NCBI RefSeq assembly: GCF_015070875.1
Contig: NZ_JADDIV010000003.1
Span: 124,001 to 188,000 of the forward strand
Source: Ramlibacter pallidus
GTDB taxonomy: Bacteria; Pseudomonadota; Gammaproteobacteria; Burkholderiales; Burkholderiaceae_C
Direction of reading: 5' to 3'
Length of the DNA stretch: 64,000 nt
The notes beneath the pieces were generated by a model. It had not been told where the DNA came from. It searched no databases and worked only from the letters and a program-made list of their open reading frames with translations. Shown one piece after another: positions 6,164 through 56,652 of the stretch. Numbering within the stretch: the first letter of the stretch is position 1; every line of letters starts with the position of its first letter. The position numbers and the translations under genes are program-made.

Positions 6164-6206
6164 TCGACGATCCACTCACCACCCTCCCTCACCCCCGCCC
6201 GCCCCC

Positions 6207-6233
6207 TCATCCCCGCGAAGGCGGGGACCCAGG
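6207..6233. repeat. single REP-like repeat
   Basis: A GC-rich imperfect palindrome, CCCCGCGAAGGCGGGG, preceded by TCAT and followed by ACCCAGGG. It belongs to the same dispersed family as the copies at 9643, 14927, 16999 and those bounding the three large cassettes. It lies between the stress-protein operon and the aminotransferase gene. Confidence 0.8.
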
Positions 6234-6244
6234 GCTTCCCAGAA

Positions 6245-6270
6245 AGGGCCGCGAAAGCGGCCCTCTCCCT
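6245..6270 (+). terminator. GAAA-tetraloop hairpin, probable terminator of the stress-protein operon
   Basis: AGGGCCGC (6245-6252), loop GAAA, GCGGCCCT (6257-6264), then a pyrimidine-rich CTCCCTTT. The stem is perfect and the loop is a stable GNRA type. The T run is short, so termination may be partial. Confidence 0.55.
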
Positions 6271-6340
6271 TTGCTAGGCCCCACCCCCCGTCTCATGGAA
6301 AATGCCCGGACTCCTCCAGCCTTCCCCCACTGAGCCCTTC

Positions 6341-7537
6341 ATGCCCCTGAAATTCGCCTCCCGCCTGGACAACGTCGAAACCTCCGCCATCCGCGAGCTG
6401 TTCAAGCTCCTGGGCAAGCCCGGCATCATCTCCTTCGCCGGCGGCTTTCCCGACAGCGCCATGTTCGACGTCGAGGGCCTTCGCGAGGCGTCCCAGAAGG
6501 CCCTGGCCGAAGAACCCGGCGGCGCCCTCCAGTACGGCGCCACCGAAGGCTACGAACCCCTGCGCACCCAGCTCGCCGCCTTCGAGCGCAGCAAGGGCGT
6601 GACGGACATCGAGCCGCAGAACCTGATCGTCACCACCGGCAGCCAGCAGGCGCTGGACCTCCTGGGCAAGACGATGATCAGCCCCGGCGACAAGGTCATC
6701 GTGGAAGGCCCGACCTTCCTGGCCACCATCCAGTGCTTCCGCCTTTATGGCGCCGACCTCGTGAGCGCGCCCATCGACGCCAACGGCGTGCAGGTCGACA
6801 AGCTGGAACAGCTGATCGCCGAACACAGGCCCAAGTTCGTCTACCTGATCCCCACCTTCGGCAACCCCAGCGGCGCGCTGCTGTCGCTGGAGCGGCGCAA
6901 GAAGATCCTGGAACTGGCCGTGAAGTACCAGGTGCTGGTCGTCGAAGACGACCCCTACGGCGACCTGTACTTCGGCGAGGCGCCGCCCCCGAGCATGCTG
7001 GCGCTCTCCAAGGACGTGCCGGGCAGCCGCGAGTGGATCGCCCACTGTGGCTCCATGAGCAAGGTGCTCAGCCCCGGCCTGCGCGTGGGTTGGTTGATCG
7101 CGCAGCCCGAGCTGCTGGCCAAGTCGACGATGTGCAAGCAGTTCAGCGACGCGCACACCAGCACCTTCGCGCAGGCGACGGCAGCGCAGTACCTGAAGAG
7201 CGGGCGCATGCCGGCGACGCTGGACAACGTGCGGAAGAAGTATGCGGAGCGTGCGGACGCGATGGCGCAGGCGCTGACGCGCGAGCTGGGCGATGCGATC
7301 GAGTTCACCGCGCCGAAGGGTGGGCTGTTCTTCTGGGCGCGGCTGACGGGCGCGGGTGGGAAGGTGAAGGACGCCAGCGAATTCGCGAAGCGGGCGATCG
7401 AGCAGGGGGTGGCGTTTGTGCCGGGGGCGCCGTTTTATGCGAACAACCCTGATAACTCTTCATTCCGGTTGAGCTTTGCGACGGCGGACGTCGGCAAGAT
7501 CATCGAAGGATCGAAGCGACTCGGAGCGGCAATCTAG
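6341..7537 (+). CDS. PLP-dependent aminotransferase, LysN / 2-aminoadipate type
   Basis: A 398-residue fold-type I aminotransferase. It has the family patterns GGFPDSAMF near the N terminus, YGATEGYEPLR (about 65-75), the PLP-stacking and phosphate-binding stretch VTTGSQQALDLLGK, the PTFGNPSG loop, VEDDPYGDLYF, and the Schiff-base lysine in SMSKVLSPGLRVGW (Lys241). Relatives transfer amino groups between 2-oxoacids and amino acids such as 2-aminoadipate, leucine or aromatic acids, and some are valine-pyruvate types, so the true substrate is open. I chose the ATG at 6341; an upstream ATG at 6302 would add 13 residues ahead of the conserved MPLKFASRLDN start. It appears monocistronic. Confidence 0.9.
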   Translation: MPLKFASRLDNVETSAIRELFKLLGKPGIISFAGGFPDSAMFDVEGLREASQKALAEEPGGALQYGATEGYEPLRTQLAAFERSKGVTDIEPQNLIVTTGSQQALDLLGKTMISPGDKVIVEGPTFLATIQCFRLYGADLVSAPIDANGVQVDKLEQLIAEHRPKFVYLIPTFGNPSGALLSLERRKKILELAVKYQVLVVEDDPYGDLYFGEAPPPSMLALSKDVPGSREWIAHCGSMSKVLSPGLRVGWLIAQPELLAKSTMCKQFSDAHTSTFAQATAAQYLKSGRMPATLDNVRKKYAERADAMAQALTRELGDAIEFTAPKGGLFFWARLTGAGGKVKDASEFAKRAIEQGVAFVPGAPFYANNPDNSSFRLSFATADVGKIIEGSKRLGAAI

Positions 7538-7573
7538 TTGCGGCGGGGCAGGTAGCCATGGAAGAGAGCTGAA

Positions 7574-8197
7574 ATGCTGGACGTCATCCTCCCCTTCCTC
7601 CACTCCCTCTCCGGCCCTCCCGCCTACGCTCTCCTCTTCGCCCTCCTTTTCGCCTGCGGCACCGGCGCCCCCATCAACGAGGACATCCTCCTCCTTGCCG
7701 CAGCTGCCCTGACGCTCCAAGGCGTCTTCGACCCCATCCCGCTGATCGTCGTCTCCTGGTTCGGCCTCATCGCAGGTGACGCCGTCACCTTTGCCCTCGG
7801 CCACCGCTACGGCGCTCGCATGCTGCGCAAACCCTGGGCCGCGCGCATCGTCCCGCCCGCCCGGCTGGAGTCGCTTCAAGGCACCATGCTTCGCTACGGT
7901 CCTGCGTACATCTTCGTGGTGCGCTTCCTCCCCGGCATCCGCACCATGCTGTTCTTCGCGGCCGGGTCGCTGAAGACGCGCTACCGTCACTTCTTCGTCT
8001 ACGACGGTCTGGCCGCGGCGATCGAGCTGCCGCTGCTGGTCTACGGCGTGCGCTACATCGGCGGGCGCTGGCAGGAGATCACGGGCTGGGTGAAGGGCTC
8101 GGGCACCGTGCTGACGATTGCGCTGGTGGTGGCACTCGTCGCCGCCTTCATCTACAGCCGCATGCGCCGCGCCAAGCCGGCCAAGCCCGCGCCATGA
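7574..8197 (+). CDS. DedA family membrane protein
   Basis: A 207-residue polytopic inner-membrane protein of the DedA/SNARE-associated family. It has the characteristic re-entrant motif ACGTGAPINEDILLLAAA, then GLIAGDAVTFALGHRYG, and the second motif VVRFLPGIRTMLFFAAG. Four to five hydrophobic segments are visible. DedA proteins are implicated in lipid carrier or phospholipid recycling across the membrane and in membrane-potential maintenance. The stop overlaps the start of the PLP lyase-like gene by 4 bp (8194-8197), so the two are translationally coupled. This suggests that the enzyme product or substrate is a membrane lipid; that is inference. Confidence 0.9.
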   Translation: MLDVILPFLHSLSGPPAYALLFALLFACGTGAPINEDILLLAAAALTLQGVFDPIPLIVVSWFGLIAGDAVTFALGHRYGARMLRKPWAARIVPPARLESLQGTMLRYGPAYIFVVRFLPGIRTMLFFAAGSLKTRYRHFFVYDGLAAAIELPLLVYGVRYIGGRWQEITGWVKGSGTVLTIALVVALVAAFIYSRMRRAKPAKPAP

Positions 8198-9633
8198 GTG
8201 CCGCTACCCCGCTGCCCGCACAGGGCCGCCCGCGCGACGAGGTGCTGGCCGACCTGCAGCGCTTCGCCGCCGACGACCCCGACTACAAGGCCGGCCGGCT
8301 GTGGAGCCTGGTGTACTGGCTGGACGAGGCCCACGACGACTTCCTAGGCGATGCGTACCAGGCCTTCTCGTCGGCCAACGGGCTGAACCCCACCGCCTTC
8401 AAGAGCCTCAAGCGGCTGGAGACGGAGATCATCGCCACCGTCGCTGGCCTGCTGCACGGGACGCCGGAGGTGTGCGGCATCGTCACCTCGGGCGGCACCG
8501 AAAGTTGCCTGCTGGCCGTCAAGACCTACCGCGACCTGGCGCGCGCCACGCGCGGCGTGAAGCGGCCGGAGATGGTGTTGCCCGTCACGGCACACGTGGC
8601 ATGGTTCAAGGCGGCCGAGTACTTCAACGTGCGCGTGCGGCTGCTGCCGCTGGACGCCGGCCTGCGGCCGGACCTGCGCAAGCTGCCGCGCCTGATCAAC
8701 CGCAACACGGTCATGCTCCTGGGCTCCGCGCCCGAGTACCCGCACGGCACGATCGACCCGATCGAGGCGATGGGCCGCATTGCGCAGGACAAGGGCGTGC
8801 CGCTGCACGTCGACGCCTGCGTGGGCGGCTTCATCCTGCCCTTCGTGGAGATGAACGGCCGGCCGCTGCCCACCTGGGACTACCGCGTGCCGGGCGTCAC
8901 CTCGATCTCGGCCGACATCCACAAGTACGGCTTCGCGGCCAAGGGCGCCTCCACCATCACCTACCGCAACCTCGACCTGCTGAAGCACCAGCTGTTCGTC
9001 TACGAGGATTGGCCGGGCGGCGTCTTCGCGTCGGCGGGCATCCTCGGCACGCGGCCGGGCGGCGCCTATGCGGCGGCGTGGGCGGCGATGCAGCATTTCG
9101 GCGAAGCGGGCTACCGCGACCTCGCGCGCCGCACGATGGAAGCCTTCGACCGCATGCGCGATGCGATCACCGCGGCGCCGGAGCTGTACGTGATGGGCGA
9201 GCCCAGCGGCCCGCTGCTGGCGTACGGCTCGCGCGATCCGCAGGTGAACATCTTCGCCGTGGGAGACCAGCTCGATGCGAAGGGCTGGACGGTGAACCGG
9301 CTGCAGAAGCCGGACGGCCTGCACGCGATGATCACGGCGGGGCACCTGGGCGTGGTCGAGGATTACCTGCGCGACCTGCGTGAAGCCGTTGCCACCGTGA
9401 AGGCGAACCCTGCGCTGGCGAAGGAAGGCAGCGCCGCCACCTACGGGATGATGGCGCACGTCCCGCTGCGCGGCATGGTGCGCGAGAAGGTCCGCGACCT
9501 GTTCGTGCAGATGTACAAGGCCGGCGGCGGCGAGGTCGACCTGCACGCCGCGCCGCCGCCGCAGGGCAGAGTGGATGCCCTGCTGGAGAAGGCGGCGCGG
9601 TGGTATGTGGAGCGCAAGCAGCGGCGGGGCTGA
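8194..9633 (+). CDS. sphingosine-1-phosphate-lyase-like PLP enzyme
   Basis: A 479-residue PLP-dependent decarboxylase-fold enzyme that resembles eukaryotic sphingosine-1-phosphate lyase closely in motif order. The shared blocks are VTSGGTESCLLAVKTYRD (about 97-113), NTVMLLGSAPEYPHGTIDP, PLHVDACVGGFI, the Schiff-base block TSISADIHKYGFAAKG (Lys244) and GGVFASAGILGTRPGG. The eukaryotic enzyme cleaves phosphorylated long-chain bases to an aldehyde and ethanolamine phosphate. Unlike that enzyme it has no N-terminal membrane anchor. It is coupled to the DedA gene upstream. Relatives annotated simply as group II decarboxylases also exist, so a different phosphoamino-lipid or amino-acid substrate is possible. 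Confidence 0.82.
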   Translation: MSAATPLPAQGRPRDEVLADLQRFAADDPDYKAGRLWSLVYWLDEAHDDFLGDAYQAFSSANGLNPTAFKSLKRLETEIIATVAGLLHGTPEVCGIVTSGGTESCLLAVKTYRDLARATRGVKRPEMVLPVTAHVAWFKAAEYFNVRVRLLPLDAGLRPDLRKLPRLINRNTVMLLGSAPEYPHGTIDPIEAMGRIAQDKGVPLHVDACVGGFILPFVEMNGRPLPTWDYRVPGVTSISADIHKYGFAAKGASTITYRNLDLLKHQLFVYEDWPGGVFASAGILGTRPGGAYAAAWAAMQHFGEAGYRDLARRTMEAFDRMRDAITAAPELYVMGEPSGPLLAYGSRDPQVNIFAVGDQLDAKGWTVNRLQKPDGLHAMITAGHLGVVEDYLRDLREAVATVKANPALAKEGSAATYGMMAHVPLRGMVREKVRDLFVQMYKAGGGEVDLHAAPPPQGRVDALLEKAARWYVERKQRRG

Positions 9634-9642
9634 CGACGCCTC

Positions 9643-9670
9643 CGTCATTCCCGCGAAGGCGGGAACCCAG
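9643..9670. repeat. single REP-like repeat
   Basis: Same family as the repeat at 6207: CGTCATTCCCGCGAAGGCGG followed by GAACCCAG. It sits in the 84-bp gap between the lyase-like gene and the NYN gene. Confidence 0.82.
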
Positions 9671-9717
9671 CGCTCCCGTGTTCCTGTCCACGCGATACGA
9701 TCTACGCCGGAGAACGC

Positions 9718-10248
9718 ATGAACCATCCATCCGGCGCCGAGCCCCGCTCCGTCGCCCTCTACTGGGATTTCGAGAACCTGCACGCCAGCCTCGCTGAGGC
9801 GCGCGAGCCGGGCGTGTACGGGCCGGGGAACCGCTTCAAGCTGCAGGAACCGCTGGTGGAAGTGGACACCGTCGTGAAGCTGGCCGCGACCTTCGGCCCC
9901 ATCGCCATCCACCGTGCCTTCTGCAACTGGCAATTCTTCGCCCGCTACCGCGAAGCACTGATGCAGAACGCCATCGACCTGGTGCAATTGTTCCCGCCGG
10001 GCGGCGCGGCGAAGAACGGGGCGGACATCCGCCTGTGCCTGGATGCGATGGAGGACATCGGGCGCTTTCCCCACATCGGCACCGTCGTCATCGTCAGCGG
10101 CGACAGCGACTACATGCCGGTCGCGCAGAAGATCAAGGCGGCCGGTCGCCGGCTGGTCGGCGTGGGCACGCGCGCGGCGACCAACAAGCATTGGGCCGGC
10201 AGCTGCGACGAGTTCCGGTACTACGAGGACATCGTCGCGCCGGCGTGA
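9718..10248 (+). CDS. NYN domain protein (LabA/DUF88-like putative ribonuclease)
   Basis: A 176-residue protein with a complete NYN domain, the PIN-like nuclease fold. The signature acidic positions are visible: YWDFENLHAS near residues 15-23, GADIRLCLDAM near 101, and IVSGDSDYMPVAQKIK near 122. Together these would coordinate a metal ion for RNA cleavage. The last strand VGVGTRAATNKHW closes the fold. There is no fused OB-fold or OST-HTH domain, unlike many LabA-type proteins. It is followed after 31 bp by a cold-shock-domain protein on the same strand, so nuclease and RNA-binding partner may work together. The actual RNA substrate is unknown. Confidence 0.85.
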   Translation: MNHPSGAEPRSVALYWDFENLHASLAEAREPGVYGPGNRFKLQEPLVEVDTVVKLAATFGPIAIHRAFCNWQFFARYREALMQNAIDLVQLFPPGGAAKNGADIRLCLDAMEDIGRFPHIGTVVIVSGDSDYMPVAQKIKAAGRRLVGVGTRAATNKHWAGSCDEFRYYEDIVAPA

Positions 10249-10279
10249 CCGCGGCGGCGCGAGCGAGCGAGGAGTGCAG

Positions 10280-10744
10280 ATGCGGTTCAGCGGCAAGCTT
10301 CACAAGTTCGACGAGGCGCGCGGATTCGGTGTCATCCGGCCGGATGGCGGGGGCGACGATCTCCTGGTGCACCGGTCCGCGTTGCCGACGCCACGGCCGG
10401 CGTTGCAGGACGCCCTGACCTTCGAAGTGGCGCTCGACGCCAAGGGGCGGAAGCGGGCCACCGAGGTGCAGCTGCCGCAGGTCGCACCGCGGGCGGCCGC
10501 GGTGCCGGACCGGCGCAACGAGCCCCTGCAGATTCCCGAACTCCCTCGCGAACGGCGCCGGAACGTCAATCTCACCGTGGTCCGCATCGTCTCCGTGCTG
10601 GTCACGGTGGGCCTGCTCTGGGCCCTCGGCAGCTGCATGTCGCGCGACCTCGATCGCAAGCGGCCGGGCGCGCGCAAGCAATCGATGCCGGCATTGGAGC
10701 ATCCACCTGGGCATGCGGCCTCCAGGCGCCCGGCAGCGTCCTGA
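10280..10744 (+). CDS. cold-shock-domain protein with C-terminal membrane anchor
   Basis: A 154-residue protein. Residues 1-65 form a cold-shock OB fold: KLHKFDEARGFGVIRPDGGG carries the RNP1-like motif and DDLLVHRSAL the second. A Pro/Arg-rich linker follows, then a single hydrophobic segment at about 98-118 (NLTVVRIVSVLVTVGLLWAL) and a basic tail. The known relatives fuse CSD to DUF1294; here only one membrane helix remains. The role is probably binding single-stranded RNA or DNA at the membrane. It lies 31 bp downstream of the NYN gene with a GGAG ribosome-binding site, so the two are probably co-transcribed. Confidence 0.8.
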   Translation: MRFSGKLHKFDEARGFGVIRPDGGGDDLLVHRSALPTPRPALQDALTFEVALDAKGRKRATEVQLPQVAPRAAAVPDRRNEPLQIPELPRERRRNVNLTVVRIVSVLVTVGLLWALGSCMSRDLDRKRPGARKQSMPALEHPPGHAASRRPAAS

Positions 10745-10762
10745 AGTGCCGCGCTGCTGCCG

Positions 10763-11626
10763 TCACACCGGCAGCAGCCGCAGCAGCTCGCGGTTGGTCA
10801 CCTCCGGCGCCTCGTAGGGCACCCAGTGCCCGGCATCGGGCACCACCACCAGCTCCTCGAACGTCGGCGCAGCCTCCAGCAGGGCGCGCAGTTCGTCCAT
10901 CTTGTCCCGGTACAGCGCGTCCTGCTCCGCGTAGATCGCGGACAGCGGGCAGCGGATCGCCGGCAGCGTCTGCAGCAGCAGGTCGGTCAATGCGAGCTTG
11001 CGCCGGTGCATGCGATCGCGCGGCACGTTGGCTGCCTGGATCGCCATCGCGAGGTCGTCGATGGCCTCGTCGCGGTACAGCATCAGGGTGGCCAGGTTGC
11101 TGCGGTGGGCGGCCAGCTTCTCCGCCTCCGTGGGCGCGTCGCGCCAGGAGGTGAGGGGCAGGCGGCGGCTGCGCAAGCCGAGGCCCGGCGCGCCGACGAG
11201 CACCAGTCGCTGCACGCGCTCCGGCTGCGCGGCCGCGATCAGGGCGCCGCAGAGGCCGCCGAAGGAGAAGCCGGCGATGTCGACGGGCGCATCGCCGCAC
11301 ATCTGCCGCATGCCGTCGGCGACCGCAGGTGCCACGGAGTCCACATCCTGCCCGCCCGGCGGCCGCGCCGAGTCACCGAAGCCGGGCAGGTCCGGCACCA
11401 CCACCCAGCGGCCGGCCTCGGCCAGCGCATCCACGTTGCGGATCCAGTGCGTCCAGCTGCCGCTGCCGCCGTGCAGCAGCACCAGCGGCGGGTCGGCGCG
11501 GTCGCCCCAGGTGTGCCAGACCAGGTCGCCGTCGCCGCAGGGGGTGGTGTGGCGGGTCGCCCGCGAAAGGACGCGCAGCGCCGGGGCCGGAAGATCGGAT
11601 CGCAGGGACGAGGAAGCATCGGACAT
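10763..11626 (-). CDS. alpha/beta hydrolase
   Basis: A 287-residue alpha/beta-hydrolase-fold protein. The oxyanion loop is PLVLLHGGSGSWTHW, the strand 4-helix region VVVPDLPGFGDSARP, the nucleophile elbow GFSFGG (Ser121), and the catalytic His lies in VPDAGHWVPYEAPE near residue 270. An Asp in the IYAEQDALY stretch is the likely acid. The family includes esterases, C-C hydrolases and haloperoxidase-like enzymes; no feature fixes the substrate. The ATG at 11626 avoids an unsupported 19-residue extension. It converges with the CSD gene (18 bp apart) and diverges from the small secreted-protein operon at 11727. Confidence 0.85.
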   Translation of the reverse strand: MSDASSSLRSDLPAPALRVLSRATRHTTPCGDGDLVWHTWGDRADPPLVLLHGGSGSWTHWIRNVDALAEAGRWVVVPDLPGFGDSARPPGGQDVDSVAPAVADGMRQMCGDAPVDIAGFSFGGLCGALIAAAQPERVQRLVLVGAPGLGLRSRRLPLTSWRDAPTEAEKLAAHRSNLATLMLYRDEAIDDLAMAIQAANVPRDRMHRRKLALTDLLLQTLPAIRCPLSAIYAEQDALYRDKMDELRALLEAAPTFEELVVVPDAGHWVPYEAPEVTNRELLRLLPV

Positions 11627-11726
11627 GCGGCATTGTCCTTCCGGATGGCGCGACCGCCACGCCCCGCGCGCTATGCTGCGCATGGCCGCGAGATCGTTCG
11701 GCGGCGACAGCGTACAGGGGAGTGCA

Positions 11727-12125
11727 ATGCAGATTCAGGCAGCCTGCAGGGGGATCGCCACGGCGGGCGCGCTGGTCGCTGCCGCGCCGTGTTCGGCCCT
11801 GACCTTGGCGCAAGGAGCGGAGAACGTGCTCTATTTCGAGCACGCCCGCCTGAGTTCGGAGAGTTGCGAGTCGCGGGGCTTCCGCACCTCCGCCGCTTAC
11901 CGCGCCTGGCGAGACGAGAACGACGCCGGGTACCGTGCGTCCATCCAGGCGATCCGTGCGGAGGCCGAGGCGCGCGGGGTGCGCGGCAAGGCGCAGGACG
12001 ACCTGCTCGCCGCCGCCATGGAGAACCAGGCCCGCCTGGCCGGAGACCATATCGCGCGCCGGCCGGTCGATTGCGGCAACTTCGCGAAGGTGCTGCGCAT
12101 GTATTCGGACCTGATGCGCAAATGA
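11727..12125 (+). CDS. small secreted protein of unknown function
   Basis: A 132-residue protein with a likely Sec signal peptide (MQIQAACRGIATAGALVAAA, cleavage probably near residue 22-25). The mature part is helical and charged and has two cysteines (in SSESCESRGF and RRPVDCGNFAK) that could form a disulfide. I do not recognise a family. The stop overlaps the start of the next small membrane-protein gene by 4 bp, so the two are coupled. An in-frame ATG 57 bp upstream would bury the signal peptide, so it was not used. Confidence 0.6.
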   Translation: MQIQAACRGIATAGALVAAAPCSALTLAQGAENVLYFEHARLSSESCESRGFRTSAAYRAWRDENDAGYRASIQAIRAEAEARGVRGKAQDDLLAAAMENQARLAGDHIARRPVDCGNFAKVLRMYSDLMRK

Positions 12126-12385
12126 CGCGAAGCAACGTTCCGGGCCGGCGGCCTCTGTCCGCGAAGACCCGGCTCTACATCTTCCTCGGCGTAGGCTTCC
12201 CATGCCTCGCCTGGATGAAGTACCTGAGTCCGGGTCCGTCGTCCGGCAAGTGGGGCGCGATCGAACGGCTGCTCATGCAGATGCTGGGGAGGGAAGGTGT
12301 ATTGCTGGCCCTCGTCGCCATCGGCGTGCTGTTCCTCTCGCTGGCGCTGCCGGACGTATTGGCGCGGTTCAAGCGCAAGGACTGA
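12122..12385 (+). CDS. small inner-membrane protein
   Basis: An 87-residue protein with two hydrophobic segments, one near 18-34 (LYIFLGVGFPCLAWMKYL) and one near 60-78 (GVLLALVAIGVLFLSLAL), and a basic C-terminal end RFKRKD that suggests a cytoplasmic tail. The start overlaps the upstream stop (ATGA). I do not recognise the family. It ends one base before the stop codon of the convergent phospholipase-D gene. Confidence 0.55.
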   Translation: MTRSNVPGRRPLSAKTRLYIFLGVGFPCLAWMKYLSPGPSSGKWGAIERLLMQMLGREGVLLALVAIGVLFLSLALPDVLARFKRKD

Positions 12386-13648
12386 TCACAACACGTCGTT
12401 CAGCAGGTACGCCGCGTTGTCCTTCACCTTGTGCATCCACCCGCGCTTCTTCCACTGCTCCAGCTTCACCTCGTTGGCGCGCTGCACGTACTTCTCGAAG
12501 ATCGCGTCGAACTTCCCGGCGATGCCCTGGTCCAGGATGCCCAGCGTGATCTCGTCGTTGGTGTCGAAGGAGCGGTCGTCGAAGTTGGTCGAGCCCACCG
12601 CGCTCCAGCAGCCGTCCACCGTCATCACCTTCTGGTGCAGCAGCGTGTGCGGGTACTCGAAGAGGCGCACGCCGCCTTCCAGCAGCCGCTCGAAGTGGTA
12701 GTGGCCGGCGTGCTGCACCATCGGCGCGTCGGATCCGCTGGTGGCCGGCATCAGCACCCGGACGTCCACGCCCCGCTTCACGGCCGCCGTCATCGCATCG
12801 ATCGCTTCCCACTTGGGGATGAAGTAGGGGTTCTGGATCCAGAGCTTCTTCTTCGCCAGGCACAGCACCGTGTGGTGCAGCAGCTTGACGGCCGGCGCGG
12901 AGTTCTCCGGCTTCAGGAAGGCGGCGTGGATCGGGATGTCGCCCACCTTGTGCAGCACCGGGAAGTAGTCGTCGCCGATGAAGACCTCGCCGGTCTCGCC
13001 GATCCAGTTCTCGCTGAAGGCCGCCTGGATGCTGTGCACGATGGGGCCGTGCAGCCAGACGCTGACGTCCGACCAGTGCGTGTGGTCCTCGGCGTTCCCC
13101 AGCCATTCGTCGGTGATGCAGTGGCCACCGACGAAAGCTTCCTTGCCGTCCAGCACGCACAGCTTGCGGTGGTCGCGGTCGTTCAGCACGCCGATCGTGT
13201 AGAGCGAATGCTTGTGGAAGAACTTCACCTTGCAGCCGGCCTCGCGCATGAAGGCGAGCTGCTCCTTCTCCACCTTCTTGGAGCCTTGGGCGTCCAGCAG
13301 GATGCGCACCGTCACGCCGGCCTTGGCGCGCTCGATGAACGCGTTGGCCAGCCGCGTGCCCAGCGCGCCCGGCTTCCACAGGAAGGTCTCGAAGTGCACG
13401 GACTTCTGCGCCGCGCCGATGCGCTCGATCAGCACGTCGTAGAAGTGGCCGTTCTCGAGCACGTCGACGGTGTTGCCTTCGACGGAGGTGCTGAGGCTCA
13501 GCCCCGACAGCGAGGGCATCAGTTCGTCGATGCCGCACTTGGCCTCCACCTGCAGGATGGGGCTGCGGTGCCGCCGGATCGACCAGATCACCAGCGTCAG
13601 CACGACGACCAGCGCCAGCGACAGCCACATCCAGAGGGGGTTGCTCAT
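12386..13648 (-). CDS. phospholipase D-type cardiolipin synthase
   Basis: A 420-residue membrane-anchored phosphatidyltransferase. An N-terminal helix (residues 6-23) is followed by two HKD active-site motifs: HRKLCVLD (His160, Lys162, Asp167) and HQKVMTVD (His338, Lys340, Asp345), each followed by the expected Gly/Ser-rich turn (FVGG and AVGSTN). This two-HKD architecture with an N-terminal anchor is that of the bacterial ClsA/ClsB group, which condenses phospholipids into cardiolipin. It has only one visible N-terminal helix, where ClsA has two, so a ClsB-like or other PLD role cannot be excluded. The gene is monocistronic and convergent with 12122-12385. Confidence 0.88.
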   Translation of the reverse strand: MSNPLWMWLSLALVVVLTLVIWSIRRHRSPILQVEAKCGIDELMPSLSGLSLSTSVEGNTVDVLENGHFYDVLIERIGAAQKSVHFETFLWKPGALGTRLANAFIERAKAGVTVRILLDAQGSKKVEKEQLAFMREAGCKVKFFHKHSLYTIGVLNDRDHRKLCVLDGKEAFVGGHCITDEWLGNAEDHTHWSDVSVWLHGPIVHSIQAAFSENWIGETGEVFIGDDYFPVLHKVGDIPIHAAFLKPENSAPAVKLLHHTVLCLAKKKLWIQNPYFIPKWEAIDAMTAAVKRGVDVRVLMPATSGSDAPMVQHAGHYHFERLLEGGVRLFEYPHTLLHQKVMTVDGCWSAVGSTNFDDRSFDTNDEITLGILDQGIAGKFDAIFEKYVQRANEVKLEQWKKRGWMHKVKDNAAYLLNDVL

Positions 13649-13860
13649 CTTGGTGTTCTTGTTGAGGTTATGGAAGATTATTGGCACAGCCGTGGGTGCA
13701 CGGGGGCCGGTTTGGCCCGGCGGCGCCTCCGACAAAGCCGCAGCCCGCCGCAGGCGCCGTCCGGCAAGAGCGAGCGCGCGGCGCCCACCGGCGGGTGATT
13801 CGGGCGGGGCCCGTCGCACCAGCGCAGGCGTAGACTGCGGCAGCTTCCACGCTGCCGCCC

Positions 13861-14925
13861 ATGACGACGACCTCCACGCCCCGCTACAGCGCCCAGGCGC
13901 TCAACACCTTCGCCCGCGGCCTGCTCACAGCCGTGGGCATGCCCGGCGACAAGGCGCAGGCCGTCGCGGACATCCTCGGCGAAGGCGACCTGCTCGGCCA
14001 CACCACGCACGGGCTGCAGCTGCTGCCGTCGTACCTGAAGGAGGTGGAGTCCGGCTCCATGCGCGTGGACGGCGCCCCGGAGGTGATCCACGAGGCGCCG
14101 GCGGCGCTGACCTGGAATGGGCGCCGCCTGCCCGGGCCGTGGCTGGTGCTCGAAGCGATGAAGGCGGCCACGGCCAAGGCGAAGCAGTACGGCACCGGCA
14201 CGGTGGTGATCCGCCAGAGCCACCACATTGCGTGCCTGGCGGCGTTCCACGAGCGCGCGACGGCGCAGGGCCTCATGCTCATCCTGGCGTCTTCGGACGC
14301 GAACTCGGCGAGCGTGGCGCCCTATGGCGGGCTCGACCCGGTGTTCACGCCGAACCCGATCTCGGTGGGCATCCCCACCAGCGGCAAGCCGATCGTGACG
14401 GACATCTCGACCTCCGCCACCACGAACGGCCTCACCAACCGGTTGCACGCGGAAGGCGGGAAGCTGCCGGCGCCATGGCTGATCGACGGACAGGGGCAGC
14501 CGTCCGATGACCCGGCGGTGCTGTTCCGGGAGCCGAAGGGCACGATCCTGCCGCTGGGCGGGCTCGACTCCGGGCACAAGGGCTACGGCCTGTCGCTGAC
14601 GGTGGAGGCGCTCACCGGCGGCCTGGCGGGCTTCGGCCGCGCGGACCCGAAGCAGGGCTGGGGCGCCACGGTGTTCCTGCAGGTGATCGACCCGGCGGCG
14701 TTCGCGGGCACGACGGACTTCGTGCGGCAGATGGACGAGGTCGCGCGGCAGTGCCGTGCCTCGCGTCCGGCGCAGCCGGGCAAGGGCGTGCGCCTGCCGG
14801 GCGAGAAGGGCTACCGGCTGGCGGACCAGCAGCGCGAGCGCGGGGTCACGCTGCATCTGGGGATCATGGACGCGTTGCAGCCCTGGGCGGAGAAGCTGAA
14901 GGTGAGCGTTCCCGTCGCCACGTAG
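13861..14925 (+). CDS. Ldh family oxidoreductase (malate/L-lactate dehydrogenase type)
   Basis: A 354-residue NAD(P)-dependent 2-hydroxyacid oxidoreductase of the MDH2/YbiC/ComC family, not the Rossmann lactate dehydrogenase family. Visible blocks are GDLLGHTTHGLQLLPSYLK, the His-containing RQSHHIACLAAF (His121/122), PYGGLDPVFTPNPISVGIPT, and GHKGYGLSLTVEALTGGLAG. Substrates in the family include malate, sulfolactate, ureidoglycolate and 2,3-diketogulonate. It faces the tct carboxylate transporter genes in a convergent arrangement, which fits uptake followed by oxidation of a hydroxyacid; this link is inferred. Confidence 0.88.
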   Translation: MTTTSTPRYSAQALNTFARGLLTAVGMPGDKAQAVADILGEGDLLGHTTHGLQLLPSYLKEVESGSMRVDGAPEVIHEAPAALTWNGRRLPGPWLVLEAMKAATAKAKQYGTGTVVIRQSHHIACLAAFHERATAQGLMLILASSDANSASVAPYGGLDPVFTPNPISVGIPTSGKPIVTDISTSATTNGLTNRLHAEGGKLPAPWLIDGQGQPSDDPAVLFREPKGTILPLGGLDSGHKGYGLSLTVEALTGGLAGFGRADPKQGWGATVFLQVIDPAAFAGTTDFVRQMDEVARQCRASRPAQPGKGVRLPGEKGYRLADQQRERGVTLHLGIMDALQPWAEKLKVSVPVAT

Positions 14926-14926
14926 C

Positions 14927-14989
14927 CGTCATTCCCGCGGAGGCGGGAACCCAGGGCGCCCTGGGTCCCCGCCTCCGCGGGGACGACGG
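14927..14989. repeat. face-to-face pair of REP-like repeats
   Basis: Two copies of the REP-like repeat point at each other: one starting CGTCATTCCCGCGGAGGCGG and its inverse ending CCGCGGGGACGACGG. They join in a CCCAGGGCGCCCTGGG core, so the 63-bp whole can fold into one long hairpin. It lies in the convergent gap between the Ldh gene and tctA and could act as a bidirectional transcription or mRNA-decay barrier. Confidence 0.85.
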
Positions 14990-15000
14990 TCTCTCCTGGA

Positions 15001-16497
15001 TCAAGCAGCGATCGGCCGCCGCCCCCTCAGCAGCCGCAACAACGGCGGCAGGAACCACACCAGCAACGTCGCCACGGCCAGCCCGGCCGCGATCGGCCGC
15101 ATGAAGAACGCGGTGAGGTCGCCGTTGGACTTGATCATCGAGGTGATGAAGTTCTCCTCCAGCATGCCGCCCAGCACCACGCCCAGGATCGCCGGGGCGA
15201 TCGGGAAGCGGTTGGCTTCCAGCACGTAGGCGACCACGCCCGCGGCCAGCATGATGCCGACGTCGAAGATCGAGTTGTTGATGGCGAAGGTGCCCACCAG
15301 GCAGAACAGCAGGATCAGCGGCATCAGCACGTTGCGCGGCACCTGCAGGATGCGCTTGGCAACCTTGATGCACAGCAGCCCCAGCGGCACCATCACCAGG
15401 TTGGCGAGGATGAACAGCAGGAACACCGCGTAGATGTTCTGCGGGTTGGTGGTGAAGAGCGTCGGCCCCGGGTTCATGTTCTTCATGTACAGCACGCCGA
15501 TCACGATGGCCGTGATCGAGTCGCCGGGGATGCCGAACACCAGCGCGGGGATCCAGGCGCCGGCCAGCGCGCTGTTGTTGGCGGCGCCCGACTCGACGAT
15601 GCCCTCGACGTGCCCGGTGCCGAACTTCTGCGGCTCCTTCGAGAACTTCTTGCTCATGGCATAGGACATCCAGGCGGCGATGTCCGCGCCGGCGCCGGGC
15701 AAGGCGCCGACCGCCGTGCCCAGCGTGCTGCCACGCAGGATCTGCACCGGGTAGCGTTTGGCCAGCTGCCACTGGCCCTTCAGCACGTTGCCGACCTTCT
15801 CCACCACCAGTTCGGCCGGCGGGCTGGTGTCCACCACGTAGCGGATCACCTCCGAGATCGCGAACATGCCGATCATCATCGGGATCATGCCGATGCCGCC
15901 CATCAGCTCCGCGTTGCCGAGCGTGAAGCGCGGATGGCCGGCTGGATTGCCGAGGCCCACGCAGGCGACCAGCAGGCCGAGCAGCAGCGTGACCAGGCCC
16001 TTCAGCGGCTTGTCGGCCGTGATGAAGATCGCGCAGGTCAGTCCCAGCAGCACCAGCCAGAAGTATTCGAACGAGCTGAAGTTGAGGGCGAACTCCGCCA
16101 GCGTGGGCGCCGCGAGGATCAGCACCACCGTGCCGAACAGGCCACCGACGGCGGAGAACACCAGCCCGGCACCGAGCGCCGTCTCGGCCTGGCCCTTGCG
16201 CGTCATGGCGTAGGCTTCGTCGGTGTAGGCGGCCGAAGCCGGCGTGCCGGGAATGCGCAGCAGGCAGCCCGGGATGTCGCCGGAGAAGATCGCCATCGCC
16301 GTGGCCGTCACCATGGCCGCGATCGCCGGGATCGGCGGCATGAAGAACGTGACGGGCACGAGGAGCGCCGTCGCCATCGTGGCCGTCAGCCCAGGCACGG
16401 CGCCGACGAACAGCCCGAACAGCGCGGCGCCGACGATGGCCATCAAGGTCACCGGCTCGAACACCATGCCGAAGGCCTGCAGCAGCGCGGCGCTCAC
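15001..16497 (-). CDS. tctA: tripartite tricarboxylate transporter large permease TctA
   Basis: A 498-residue polytopic permease. The N terminus has the diagnostic pattern GLFVGAVPGLTATMATALL, and a second internal pattern of the same kind, GALPGAGADIAAWMSYAMSK, sits mid-protein, reflecting the inverted-repeat structure of TctA. About ten to twelve hydrophobic segments are visible. The start is GTG at 16497, which overlaps the tctB stop (GTGA). The frame is open far upstream, but the conserved N terminus and the overlap support GTG. With TctB and a Bug receptor (TctC) it imports carboxylates using an ion gradient. Confidence 0.93.
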   Translation of the reverse strand: MSAALLQAFGMVFEPVTLMAIVGAALFGLFVGAVPGLTATMATALLVPVTFFMPPIPAIAAMVTATAMAIFSGDIPGCLLRIPGTPASAAYTDEAYAMTRKGQAETALGAGLVFSAVGGLFGTVVLILAAPTLAEFALNFSSFEYFWLVLLGLTCAIFITADKPLKGLVTLLLGLLVACVGLGNPAGHPRFTLGNAELMGGIGMIPMMIGMFAISEVIRYVVDTSPPAELVVEKVGNVLKGQWQLAKRYPVQILRGSTLGTAVGALPGAGADIAAWMSYAMSKKFSKEPQKFGTGHVEGIVESGAANNSALAGAWIPALVFGIPGDSITAIVIGVLYMKNMNPGPTLFTTNPQNIYAVFLLFILANLVMVPLGLLCIKVAKRILQVPRNVLMPLILLFCLVGTFAINNSIFDVGIMLAAGVVAYVLEANRFPIAPAILGVVLGGMLEENFITSMIKSNGDLTAFFMRPIAAGLAVATLLVWFLPPLLRLLRGRRPIAA

Positions 16498-16967
16498 CAG
16501 GCGACTCCCTGCAGCACGCCCCAGGGCAGCGGCACCTTCAGCAGCTTGTAGAAGGCGAAGTGCACCACGAGCGTCGCGACGACCGCCACAGCCAGCGCCG
16601 TGCGCGGCCGCACGCGCAGCACCAGGCACAGCGCCAGCAGGATCAGGAAGCTCGCCGGCAGGAAGCCGAGGCTGTCCGCCGCGACGATGTAGAACACGAT
16701 CGACGCGAGCAGCACGGCCAGGGCCGCGACGTGGCGCGGCGAGCGCACCCAGTCGTCCCACGCCAGCCAGCCCTGCACCGCGCGCTGGCGCCAGCCGCGC
16801 ACCACCAGCAGCAGGCCGGTGACGCACAGCCCCACGGCGATGAGCCCGGGGAAGAGGGCAGGCCCGACCGGCTGGCCGGGGATCTTGGGATAGCCCTGGA
16901 CGGCGAACAGCACGCCGCCGCCCAGCAGGATCAGCAGCAGGCCGAAGACTGCGTCATTGAGTTTCAT
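16494..16967 (-). CDS. tctB: tripartite tricarboxylate transporter small subunit TctB
   Basis: A 157-residue membrane protein with four hydrophobic segments. It has the usual TctB opening MKLNDAVFGLLLILLGGGVL followed by a periplasmic PKIPGQPVGPALFPGLIAVG loop. TctB is the small permease subunit that partners TctA. It is translationally coupled to tctA by a 4-bp overlap. Between it and tctC (135 bp upstream) lies a face-to-face REP pair, so the receptor and the permease genes may be expressed at different levels. Confidence 0.92.
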   Translation of the reverse strand: MKLNDAVFGLLLILLGGGVLFAVQGYPKIPGQPVGPALFPGLIAVGLCVTGLLLVVRGWRQRAVQGWLAWDDWVRSPRHVAALAVLLASIVFYIVAADSLGFLPASFLILLALCLVLRVRPRTALAVAVVATLVVHFAFYKLLKVPLPWGVLQGVAW

Positions 16968-16998
16968 GGTGCTCCGTGGAGGCGGGCTGCCGGTACCC

Positions 16999-17061
16999 CG
17001 TCATCCCCGCGGAGGCGGGGATCCAGGGCGCCCTGGATTCCCGCCTTCGCGGGAATGACGG
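16999..17061. repeat. face-to-face pair of REP-like repeats inside the tct operon
   Basis: The same organisation as at 14927: CGTCATCCCCGCGGAGGCGG meets its inverse TTCCCGCCTTCGCGGGAATG across a CCAGGGCGCCCTGG core. Located between tctC and tctB. As RNA it would form a long hairpin that could protect upstream tctC mRNA from 3' exonucleases and lower expression of tctBA. Confidence 0.85.
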
Positions 17062-17102: not shown

Positions 17103-18086
17103 TCACTTCGCGATGCCCACCGCCTTCATCGTCGCGCCCAGTTCCGCGTCCGACTTCGCCATGAACCGGCCGAATTCGTCCGGACCCGCGTAGACCACGC
17201 CGAAGCCGCGGCTGGCCATGAAGTCGGTGTACTCCTTGCTGTTGGCCACCTTCTGCACGACGGCGGCGAGGCGGTCGCGCACCGGCGCCGGGATGCCCTT
17301 GGGCGCGACGATGCCGCGCCACGCCGCCATCGTCCAGTCGCTGCCCAGCGCCGCCTTCAGCGTCGGCACGTTGGGGTACAGCGCGGCGGGCTTGTCGTTC
17401 ATGATCGCCAGGCTCTTCACCTTGCCGGCGTCGATGAGCGAACGCGCTTCCGGCAGCGACACCGGCGCGATCTCGACCCCGCCCGCCACCATGTCCTGCA
17501 GGCCCGGCGCGGCGCCGTTGCTCGGCACCCAGGGCACGGCCGCCGGGTCGATCTTCTGGTCGCGCAGCAGGCCGGCCAGCGCCAGGTGCCAGATGCCGCC
17601 CTGGCCGGTGCCGGACGCCTTGAACTTGCCGGGGTTGGCCTTGATGGCGGCCAGCAGGTCCTGCACGGTCTTGTAGGGCGCGTCGGCACGCACCTGGATG
17701 CCCGCCGGGTCGGCGTTGACCAGCCCGATCGGCGTGTACGACGCGCCGGTCAGCTCGGTCAGGCCCTGCCAGTGCATCATGCCGATCTCCACCGTGGCCA
17801 GGCCGATGGTGTAGCCGTCGGGCGGCGCGGCGGCGATGGCCGCGTGGCCCACGACGCCGCTGCCGCCGGTGCGGTTGACCACGTTGACAGGCTGCCCCAG
17901 CTCCTTCTCCATCAGGCTGCCCAGGATGCGCGCGGTGGCGTCGGTGCCGCCGCCGGCGCCCCACGGCACGATCAGCGTGATCGGCCGTGCCGGATAGTTC
18001 TGCGCGGCGGCGGGAAAGGCCGTGGCGGCCAGGGCGAGGGCGGCGAAGGCGCCGGCCACCAGGCCGCGGCGGGAAGGACGGGTCAT
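17103..18086 (-). CDS. tctC: tripartite tricarboxylate transporter substrate-binding protein (Bug family)
   Basis: A 327-residue periplasmic receptor. The signal peptide is MTRPSRRGLVAGAFAALALA, with a twin-arginine-like pair but otherwise Sec-compatible, and cleavage is likely after AAA near residue 28. The mature domain starts NYPARPITLIVPWGAGGGTD, the hallmark of Bug/TctC proteins, and includes a Gly-rich binding loop. Bug receptors bind carboxylates or amides through water-mediated contacts. The gene precedes tctB and tctA on the same strand, so it is the dedicated receptor of this transporter. The true ligand is unknown; the neighbouring hydroxyacid dehydrogenase hints at a hydroxycarboxylate. 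Confidence 0.92.
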   Translation of the reverse strand: MTRPSRRGLVAGAFAALALAATAFPAAAQNYPARPITLIVPWGAGGGTDATARILGSLMEKELGQPVNVVNRTGGSGVVGHAAIAAAPPDGYTIGLATVEIGMMHWQGLTELTGASYTPIGLVNADPAGIQVRADAPYKTVQDLLAAIKANPGKFKASGTGQGGIWHLALAGLLRDQKIDPAAVPWVPSNGAAPGLQDMVAGGVEIAPVSLPEARSLIDAGKVKSLAIMNDKPAALYPNVPTLKAALGSDWTMAAWRGIVAPKGIPAPVRDRLAAVVQKVANSKEYTDFMASRGFGVVYAGPDEFGRFMAKSDAELGATMKAVGIAK

Positions 18087-45460: not shown

Positions 45461-45850
45461 CGTCATTCCCGCGCAGGCGGGAATCCAGGGCTCCCGCGTT
45501 CGGGGTGCGTCGCGGCAGGCGGCGGGCGGTACCGTCCCGCGGTGCCTCGCCCTGCACTTCGCTGTCGCTCGTTCCGGGTGCGCTGGAAGGCTGTCCCCGG
45601 CGGCGATCCGGCACAACTCACTGCGAGTTTGCCGCGTGCGGCAAACTCTCCGTTCAATCAAAGTGCCGGAAAAATGTGCACAGTCGCAGCGCTCGATCCG
45701 CGCTACGCGCTCTCGTAGCACTGCTTCGCCGCCGGGAACAGCCTTCCAGCCGAGGCCCCTGACTGCGGGCCGGCACCGCCCGCCGCCTGGCGCGACGGAC
45801 CCCGACCTCCAACACGGGCGCCCTGGATCCCCGCCTCCGCGGGAATGACG
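45461..45850. repeat. large nested palindromic repeat cassette, copy 1
   Basis: A REP-like repeat (45461-45490) and its inverse (45821-45850) bound about 330 bp. Inside lie long inverted arms: 45509-45533 pairs with 45772-45796 with two mismatches, and 45582-45606 pairs with 45726-45750 nearly perfectly. Near the centre is a short palindrome with arms GAGTTTGCCGC / GCGGCAAACTC at 45625-45648. The middle holds a second symmetric stretch around CGCGCTACGCGCT. No credible gene is contained. It lies between the TfoX gene and the end of mfd. Copies 2 and 3 share the same order and sequence. Confidence 0.8.
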
Positions 45851-50598: not shown

Positions 50599-50610
50599 GT
50601 TTCCATAGCC

Positions 50611-50989
50611 GACATCCCCGCGCAGACGGGGATCCAGGGCTCCCGCATCCGGGGTGCGTCGCGCCAGGCGGTGCGCGGTGCAGTCCCGCTGGTGCCTCGC
50701 CCTGCGCTGCGCTCCGGGTGCGCTGGAAGGCTGTTCCCGGCGGCGATCCGGCCAAACTCACTGCGAGTTTGCCGCGCGCGGCAAACTCTCCGTTCAAGCA
50801 AATGCCCGGAAATCAGTGCACGGTCGCAGCTCTCGATACGCGCTACGCGCTCTCGTAGACCTGCTTCGCCGCCGGGAACAGCCTTCCAGCTGAGGCCCCT
50901 TCATGCGGGCCTGCACCGCGCACCGCCTGGCGCGACGTTTGGCGCTGTAGATGCGGGAGCCCTGGGTCCCCGCCTCCGCGGGGATGACG
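50611..50989. repeat. large nested palindromic repeat cassette, copy 2
   Basis: The best-preserved copy. REP-like ends at 50611-50639 and 50960-50989 enclose nested inverted arms: CTCCCGCATC/GATGCGGGAG (50640-50649 with 50950-50959), a perfect 26-bp arm (50658-50683 with 50911-50936), and a perfect 25-bp arm (50722-50746 with 50866-50890). Inside is a perfect 24-bp palindrome (50765-50788, arms GAGTTTGCCGCG). It fills the convergent gap between ispF and the EnvZ-like gene and has no credible ORF. Confidence 0.85.
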
Positions 50990-56282: not shown

Positions 56283-56652
56283 CGTCATCCCCGCGGCGGC
56301 GGGGATCCAGGGCTTTGACTAGGGGGCCGACAGGCCCACCTCCGGCCTCGAACGTCGCGCCAGGCGGCGGGCGGTGCCGGCCCGCAATCAGGGGCCTCGG
56401 CTGGAAGGCTGTTCCCGGCTGCGACTGTGCACTGATTTCCGGGCTTCTGTTTGAACGGAGAGTTTGCCGCGCGCGGCAAACTCGGAAGTGAGTTAGGCCG
56501 GATCGCCGCCGGGAGCAGCCTTCCAGCGCACCCGGAACGAGCGATAGCGGAGTGCAGGGCGAGGCACCGCGGGACGGCACCGCCCGCCGCCTGGCGCGAC
56601 GGACCCGGGAGGAATGCGGGCGCCCTGGATTCCCGCCTGCGCGGGAATGACG
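56283..56652. repeat. large nested palindromic repeat cassette, copy 3 (inverted, internally deleted)
   Basis: REP-like ends at 56283-56312 and 56623-56652 bound about 310 bp. The perfect 25-bp arms are 56354-56378 and 56576-56600. The central palindrome (arms GAGTTTGCCGCG) lies at 56460-56483. It aligns with copy 1 as the reverse complement. About 45 bp that copies 1 and 2 carry around the CGCTACGCGCTCTCGTAG region are missing here, which removes one of the inner symmetric stretches. It fills the convergent gap between the phosphoesterase and 3-hydroxybutyrate dehydrogenase genes. Confidence 0.8.

Follow-up and report, generated by a model that had tools for sequence, protein, structure and literature searches.

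Modular cassettes in Ramlibacter pallidus: a genus-restricted core element between facing CGTC-tagged REPs

The stretch of DNA analysed here, referred to as the window, comprises 64 kb of the 4.31-Mb genome of the soil bacterium Ramlibacter pallidus (G000; C3:124001-188000, with the contig before the colon). It carries twelve copies of a 31-bp repetitive extragenic palindromic (REP) sequence with a terminal CGTC tag (CGTCATNCCCGCGNAGGCGGGNANCCAGNGC): two singles, two facing pairs with a gap of 0, and six copies that bound three large cassettes. The element enclosed in the cassettes, a core of ~290 bp, is a separate, genus-restricted element, and core and CGTC REP are separable. We consider it probable that the CGTC REPs and their head-to-head (HH) dimers are 3'-end modules, and that the cassettes are REP pairs whose spacer captured the core and which then spread. 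The preliminary description of this DNA had proposed that the cassettes arose by insertion into, or capture by, a REP pair. The modular origin contained in this proposal is supported by cores without CGTC REPs, by the REPs of genome G015, which stand without a detected core, by spacer ends shared between cassettes and ordinary pairs, and by facing pairs in a relative at three of five comparable cassette loci; the direction of change at single loci does not follow from these data.

Cassette C1 (45461-45850) consists of a REP (45461-45491), an arm (TCCCGCGTTCGGGGTG), the core (45508-45797), a further arm and the opposite REP (45820-45850). Cassette C2 (50610-50989) has its REPs at 50610-50640 and 50959-50989 and its core at 50657-50937, and cassette C3 (56283-56652) encloses a shortened core on the minus strand (56353-56601) between REPs at 56283-56313 and 56622-56652. 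A BLAST search with C1 detected 18 core copies in R. pallidus, 15 of them full-length and three cut at contig ends. REPs lie on both sides of 12 full-length cores, on one side of two and on neither side of one (C3:92518); these flanking REPs were assigned by eye, some are degenerate, and nine pairs are defined by pattern.

The comparison group was the genus Ramlibacter/Caenimonas, including R. ginsenosidimutans (G021), R. cellulosilyticus (G011), R. montanisoli (G014), Caenimonas koreensis (G012) and the Comamonadaceae metagenome-assembled genome (MAG) PMG_248 (G052). A degenerate pattern for the core end, applied to the GTDB collection, found 44 stretches, whose titles are without exception Ramlibacter, Caenimonas or Comamonadaceae MAG. 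With a covariance model built on the 3' half of the core, hits were obtained in 12 of 50 genus genomes, namely 20 hits in R. ginsenosidimutans, 16 in R. pallidus, 12 in PMG_248, eight in G042, six in G057, four each in G046, G056 and G061, two in C. koreensis, and one each in R. cellulosilyticus, R. montanisoli and G023; G001, from outside the 50-genome set, also has cores. The numbers of CGTC REPs do not track the core, as G015 has 409, G042 314, PMG_248 284 and G056 176, R. ginsenosidimutans a single one and C. koreensis none. The 409 REPs of G015 are accompanied by no core hit in the Infernal search, which was run with stricter filters over 40 genomes, so that this absence is not absolute. 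G042 had also been considered as an example of REP pairs without a core and was dropped because the covariance model gave eight core-like hits there; the point rests on G015.

Cores without CGTC REPs are seen in several relatives. By pattern, no CGTC REP lies within 110 bp of the core at any of 19 loci of R. ginsenosidimutans or 10 loci of PMG_248 (19 of 20 and 10 of 12 core hits, several at contig ends), and a full CGTC REP is likewise absent from this distance around the examined cores of G057, R. montanisoli and C. koreensis, with a half REP at one G057 locus (L316). A GTAG-like motif, as defined by our own loose pattern, occurs within the same distance at 17 of the 19 and nine of the 10 loci, and at none of 18 loci in R. 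pallidus, six in G042 and four in G057. In R. cellulosilyticus the single core sits between two CGTC REPs, in G046 one of four cores is flanked by them, and in G056 one REP adjoins the core at two of four loci, the other two being at contig ends. The core thus stands beside GTAG-like motifs in R. ginsenosidimutans, PMG_248 and G001, and elsewhere beside neither REP type. In a set of 55 loci compared with the core, four gave no match to it. Both cores of C. koreensis (L365 and L376) have GGGGTCAGATTCCAATT on one side, a sequence also found in the flanks of a Y1_Tnp gene of R. pallidus. Because the enclosed element adjoins other kinds of hairpin repeats in relatives, the large cassettes give the impression of a union between two mobile repeat families. 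The preliminary description had held that strains with cassettes lacking REP ends would speak against capture. Taken literally, such cores exist in the relatives, yet they mark the core as separable and leave the idea of capture unharmed.

These neighbourhoods also suggest, tentatively and with a probability that we regard as low, that the core, found in one bacterial genus, is a mobile element of structured DNA (or one encoding RNA) and that it borrows exchangeable ends from whichever REP family its host lineage has. Such ends might be the CGTC pairs in R. pallidus, GTAG-like motifs in R. ginsenosidimutans and PMG_248, and, with the same reservation, the repeat of tyrosine-transposase type beside the core of C. 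koreensis. If this were true, an exchange of ends would allow different systems that mobilise REPs to spread the same cargo.

The spacer ends connect the cassettes to ordinary REP pairs. A motif, T[TC]CCGC[ACT]TTC, picked post hoc from the spacers and scored at a threshold of at least 8 of 10 positions, stands directly inside the REPs in 8/8 spacers of G015, 3/3 of G056 and 1/1 of G013, although the loci of these genomes and of PMG_248 were partly picked by BLAST similarity to cassette ends and are biased toward the motif. It is present in 4/10 spacers of PMG_248 and in 5/9 of G042, where nine of 10 adjacent pairs on the REP list were sampled without similarity selection. R. pallidus has it in eight of nine pattern-defined cassettes and in two of 20 of its own REP pairs. 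In each group, at most 0.11 motif-bearing ends are expected by plain base shuffle. Thus, the cassettes keep the ends of REP-pair spacers, and what surrounds the core is an ordinary spacer of a REP pair. Among 15 R. pallidus copies, assigned by eye, the right arm is of type A in eight, of type B in three and of neither type in four. The prevalence of one outer arm type, in eight of 15 cassettes, indicates that capture was probably rare and was followed by copying of the whole unit. All four combinations of arm type and main core variant are present (A/T1 four, A/T2 four, B/T1 one and B/T2 two), which points to exchange between copies.

The arms also bear on a reversed order of events, in which the cassette would be the original mobile element with the REPs as its own terminal repeats, and the facing pairs would be internal deletions comparable to the miniature inverted-repeat transposable elements (MITEs) of an insertion sequence (IS). 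At C4:15737-15848 both outer arms are kept and the core is gone, and the short spacers of relatives have the cassette arm motif too. This is the one locus that reads as a cassette minus its core. We regard the reversed order as improbable, since G015 has its REPs with the core undetected, the cores of R. ginsenosidimutans, PMG_248, G057, R. montanisoli and C. koreensis lack full CGTC REPs nearby, at least 12 further genomes contain the gap-0 pair as a recurring unit, and most mid-size pairs of R. pallidus itself contain a terminator-like hairpin and no arm remnant. The earlier suggestion that facing pairs in general are cassettes without their middle is accordingly rejected, save for C4:15737.

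Comparison of the same loci in relatives revealed pair, cassette and empty states. At the C2 locus, G056 has REP-core-REP, PMG_248 a facing pair, and R. montanisoli, G057 and G023 have 0-12 bp. (The G056 orthologue, L229, measures 942 bp between gene ends and is a nested mosaic with other repeats inserted.) Two further R. pallidus cassettes, K2 (C6:270980) and K3 (C1:213935), also correspond to facing pairs in PMG_248. The comparison of loci suggested in the preliminary description thus shows a pair against a cassette at three of the five cassette loci comparable in PMG_248; the direction of conversion is not given by it. At the C3 locus the CGTC REP is absent from the relatives judged, and at K4 those judged have none except for one REP-like sequence in G057.

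Several of these and other observations weigh against capture by REP pairs followed by spread. Three of the 15 full-length R. pallidus cores lack one or both REPs, and PMG_248 has no CGTC pair at C3 and K4. Of the two R. pallidus pairs with the spacer motif, one is the core-deleted C4:15737, so that within this genome alone the direction from cassette to pair is equally possible. In the reverse comparison of 12 pair loci of PMG_248, eight of them selected by similarity to elements of R. pallidus, the two flanks adjoin each other in R. pallidus for 10 loci; there, a pair is present at one (C1:710106), a half-REP at one (C3:399662) and no listed CGTC REP at eight. Another locus has 2.4 kb between its flanks, with no REP listed in that interval, and the last was found on one side only. 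The eight loci without a listed REP indicate that sites turn over fast, and with fast turnover the three contrasts of pair and cassette could reflect separate insertions into a preferred site. No target-site duplication was established by eye, the empty junctions in relatives being too diverged to place the insertion point. Finally, no enzyme that mobilises REPs or cassettes was found in R. pallidus in a search confined to Y1_Tnp, other transposase families not having been searched. The sole Y1_Tnp gene found (C1:411671-412384, L184:5672-6385; 237 aa) is bracketed by inverted repeats of GGGGTCAGATTCCAATT type; no REP occurs in the 12 kb around C1:412 kb, and no core lies nearby. As its flanks are repeats of this other kind, the gene was rejected as a dedicated Y1/RAYT transposase for the REPs.

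Turnover is also evident from a census of 98 orthologous intervals, namely those with both flanks recovered (loci M2, M3 and M5 contributed none and K1 one; locus C1 was excluded because its five intervals cross coding sequence and are unreadable). Forty intervals are shorter than 45 bp, 14 contain a CGTC REP, 24 another strong palindrome and 12 other sequence, and eight exceed 420 bp. The other long palindromes at shared junctions include a GCCGAACGCAGAGG...CCTCTGCGTTCGGC-like and a GTCGCGGTTCGGC...GCCGAACCGCGAC-like family (loci L299, L300, L302, L304, L307, L292, L275 and L282, L286, L287, L291), which look like separate dispersed families. The 24 junctions with other palindromes, together with the eight of 10 PMG_248 pair loci that lack a REP in R. 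pallidus, would be expected if REPs and cores were independently attracted to the same 3'-end junctions and the cassettes were chance neighbours. This is very improbable given the fixed order, orientation and similar spacing of the REPs around the R. pallidus core (on both sides in 12 of 15 full-length copies), the arms common to unrelated sites, and the fact that in the REP-rich PMG_248 none of 10 examined cores has an adjacent CGTC REP.

In a tree of 36 cores, the copies of each genome form one clade (eight label changes, the minimum), and the clade of R. pallidus has a support of 100/100. The cores of G056 and R. cellulosilyticus, both beside CGTC REPs, group together (96/90) and apart from R. 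pallidus, so the association with these REPs has more than one origin or underwent an intervening loss. The REP-less copy C3:92518 nests among REP-flanked cores on a long branch, which fits a conversion of its interior.

The core is bounded by CGTCGCG(G/C)CAGGCGG and CCGCCTG(C/G)CGCGACG and consists of ~30-bp inverted ends plus several inner hairpins. Window cassettes are long imperfect palindromes, with DNA fold z-scores of -17.2 and -16.8 for the two that were folded. An alignment of 20 cores from nine genomes contains 80 consensus pairs, 44 of them with changes on both sides, and 95.6% of cells are paired; the terminal inverted repeats form helix 1 with 30 pairs and 96.0% of cells paired. 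The covariation score is 0.341, compared with 0.119 for shuffled and at most 0.061 for slid versions. Three of the 12 contig ends of the assembly fall within the core palindrome near its apex (C1:1, C3:1 and C6:383723), and the element thus seems to break assemblies. Rfam 15 at gathering score matched two tRNAs only in the window, and for four core-bearing loci searched at E ≤1 it gave two matches, both outside the core, and no family matching the core. A match to the thiamine pyrophosphate (TPP) riboswitch, slightly under the gathering score, lies ~100 bp from a core of PMG_248 (L312:905-1000). Comparison of the cassette with the Y1_Tnp neighbourhoods of eight genomes, to which the search for a parent IS was confined, gave no convincing match.

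The strong covariation, the location behind gene ends and the terminator-like hairpins within pairs could alternatively mean that selection maintains the composite for a transcribed RNA structure at the 3' end, be it a terminator, a stabiliser of mRNA or a small RNA, with mobility being incidental. We hold this to be unlikely. Among the 98 orthologous junctions, 40 measure less than 45 bp and 24 carry unrelated palindromes; the single clade per genome implies that copies are recent or homogenised; the core is without an Rfam match; and covariation would also be expected if a DNA palindrome of whatever kind is copied or repaired in hairpin form.

In the window, the 14-base centre of the REP, CCCGCGNAGGCGGG, has 10 exact matches, compared with 0.03 expected from dinucleotide shuffles, and 12 matches with at most one mismatch, compared with 1.37 expected and reached in 0/100 shuffles. 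The twelve copies noted earlier, as singles, facing pairs and six cassette-bounding REPs, are confirmed by this count, and the two facing pairs meet, as had been described, at a short symmetric sequence (GGGCGCCC). In the first pair (FP1, 14927-14988) the left REP (14927-14957, plus strand) begins 2 bp past a gene end at 14925, and the convergent gene 15001-16827 ends 13 bp from the right REP (14958-14988, minus strand). The second pair (FP2, 16999-17060) comprises a left REP (16999-17029, plus strand) and a right REP (17030-17060, minus strand); gene 17103-18086 ends 43 bp from the latter. At FP1, PMG_248 has the same gap-0 pair, and 0-18 bp occupy this position in six of 15 relatives judged. 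At FP2, facing pairs with different spacers occur in PMG_248, G056, G042 and G049 and one REP in R. cellulosilyticus and G020, and many relatives are empty. One single REP on the plus strand (9643-9673) lies 10 bp past a gene end at 9633. The other (6205-6235), also on the plus strand and behind the end of a plus-strand gene, is followed by a terminator-like hairpin (AGGGCCGCGAAAGCGGCCCT), so that single is not the same as bare, a small correction to the earlier count.

Throughout the genome of R. pallidus, 93 REPs were found with at most three mismatches, compared with 0 for a reversed control pattern. Thirty-five facing pairs have discrete gaps of 0 (six pairs), 13-15 bp (two), 35-50 bp (18) and 308-347 bp (nine), and nine pattern-defined pairs carry cargo. 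The lack of other loci with cargo between facing REPs, which the preliminary description regarded as evidence against its proposal, is thus not observed. The remaining REPs are mostly single; one tandem pair is located at C1:387364/387394, and the sole close divergent pair seen, at C5:518540-518630 (518540/518600), has its CGTC ends inside. Gene context was derived from a home-made codon score that missed some genes (e.g. at 49.9-50.6 kb and 55.0-56.3 kb), and the resulting counts are approximate: of the 93 REPs, 57 have a gene 3' end and seven a 5' end at most 50 bp from the CGTC side, and for a distance of 15 bp the numbers are 39 and three, respectively. Two facing pairs (C3:524567-524643 and C2:649148-649249) are inside reading frames of this rough caller; they are either genuine REPs within genes or mistakes of the caller. 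Of the 18 spacers in the 35-50 bp class, 15 contain a terminator-like hairpin, compared with 0.27 expected from shuffles, and the 55 bases behind single REPs are terminator-like in eight of 28 cases, compared with 0.20 expected. At site M1, G023 has a bare terminator-like hairpin, R. cellulosilyticus one REP plus the hairpin, and R. pallidus REP-hairpin-REP. This series suggests that REPs can be added around a pre-existing terminator, the alternative being REP loss.

At convergent gene ends, REPs stand face to face and frequently bracket a terminator-like hairpin, and the pair may act as a 3'-end module for both transcripts. If capture preceded spread, the cassettes probably formed as follows. 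In the lineage of R. pallidus, the spacer of such a pair would have taken up the separate, genus-restricted ~290-bp element once or a few times. The composite REP-arm-core-arm-REP would then have spread to ~17 sites, with recombination between copies, and this spread would need an enzyme acting in trans. In other lineages, the same core stands beside CGTC REPs (R. cellulosilyticus, G056 and one of the G046 copies), beside GTAG-like motifs or beside neither.

Facing REP pairs that form a dispersed hairpin unit are known as REP doublets forming hairpins (REPINs), with a GTAG-type tag and a REP-flanked gene for a REP-associated tyrosine transposase (RAYT). R. pallidus resembles this system in its facing pairs as a dispersed hairpin unit and differs from it in the tag, which is CGTC instead of GTAG, and in the sole Y1_Tnp gene found, which has no REP nearby and is flanked by GGGGTCAGATTCCAATT. 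A closer likeness exists to the CGTC-1 REPs, for which the portions of the Di Nocera 2013 survey at hand report no dedicated transposase and note DNA insertion between dimer partners (PMC3733652). The R. pallidus REPs (93 matches, control 0) have the terminal CGTC tag, an 8-bp stem (ATTCCCGC/GCGGGAAT) starting with AT, the 4-base loop GCAG and a CCA tail; a variant with ATCCCCGC/GCGGGGAT also fits the stem definition of CGTC-1 as given in those portions (PMC3733652). According to the same text, HH dimers predominate and tail-to-tail (TT) dimers are rare, which compares with 35 facing, one divergent and one tandem pair in R. pallidus, and structured spacers and a position behind genes are likewise common to both (PMC3733652). 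Thus, by their sequences, the R. pallidus singles fit CGTC-1 REPs and the facing pairs fit CGTC-1 HH dimers. R. pallidus is distinguished from what these portions of the survey describe (PMC3733652) by spacers that usually hold a terminator-like hairpin and by a separate cargo of 290 bp; names beginning with Comamon- or Burkholder- are not mentioned in the text of the survey.

Other repeat systems share single traits with the cassettes. The Neisseria intergenic mosaic elements (NIME) are, in the parts of the source available, mosaics of 20-bp ATTCCC(N8)GGGAAT dRS3 repeats and RS elements of 30-160 bp (PMC3898611). The sequence ATTCCCGCGCAGGCGGGAAT fits the dRS3 pattern, as do REPs of ATTCCC type, unlike those with ATCCCC/GGGGAT. 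By that description, the R. pallidus elements differ in their covarying, multi-hairpin palindromic core of ~290 bp, their genus, and their occurrence as one per junction without arrays (PMC3898611). With MITEs, as far as these are treated in the text at hand (PMC3733652), the core shares inverted ends of ~30 bp and its copy number, with up to 20 model hits per genome; it differs in having no established parent IS, on comparison with the Y1_Tnp neighbourhoods mentioned above, and no established target duplication. The BRE of Comamonadaceae and Bordetella, described in the available part of its source as a dispersed intergenic repeat of ~90 bp (PMC3110155), resembles the core in being dispersed and intergenic and differs, as described, in its length and partly tandem arrangement. 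In the open literature, searched by titles and the beginnings of abstracts, which is no proof of absence, we found no description of such a cassette in Ramlibacter or Comamonadaceae, of the core, or of lineage-specific REP caps.

For the spread of CGTC REPs, the 2013 survey reports no dedicated transposase (PMC3733652). With this natural composite, in which two REPs enclose a second element and related species show the pair, the cassette or an empty junction at corresponding sites, one can test what unit moves, in particular which ends travel together and whether the ends of the REP or those of the core are recognised. Moreover, different elements of similar fold fill the gene junctions of one genus, an observation relevant to whether such palindromes are selfish or have roles as 3'-end structures.

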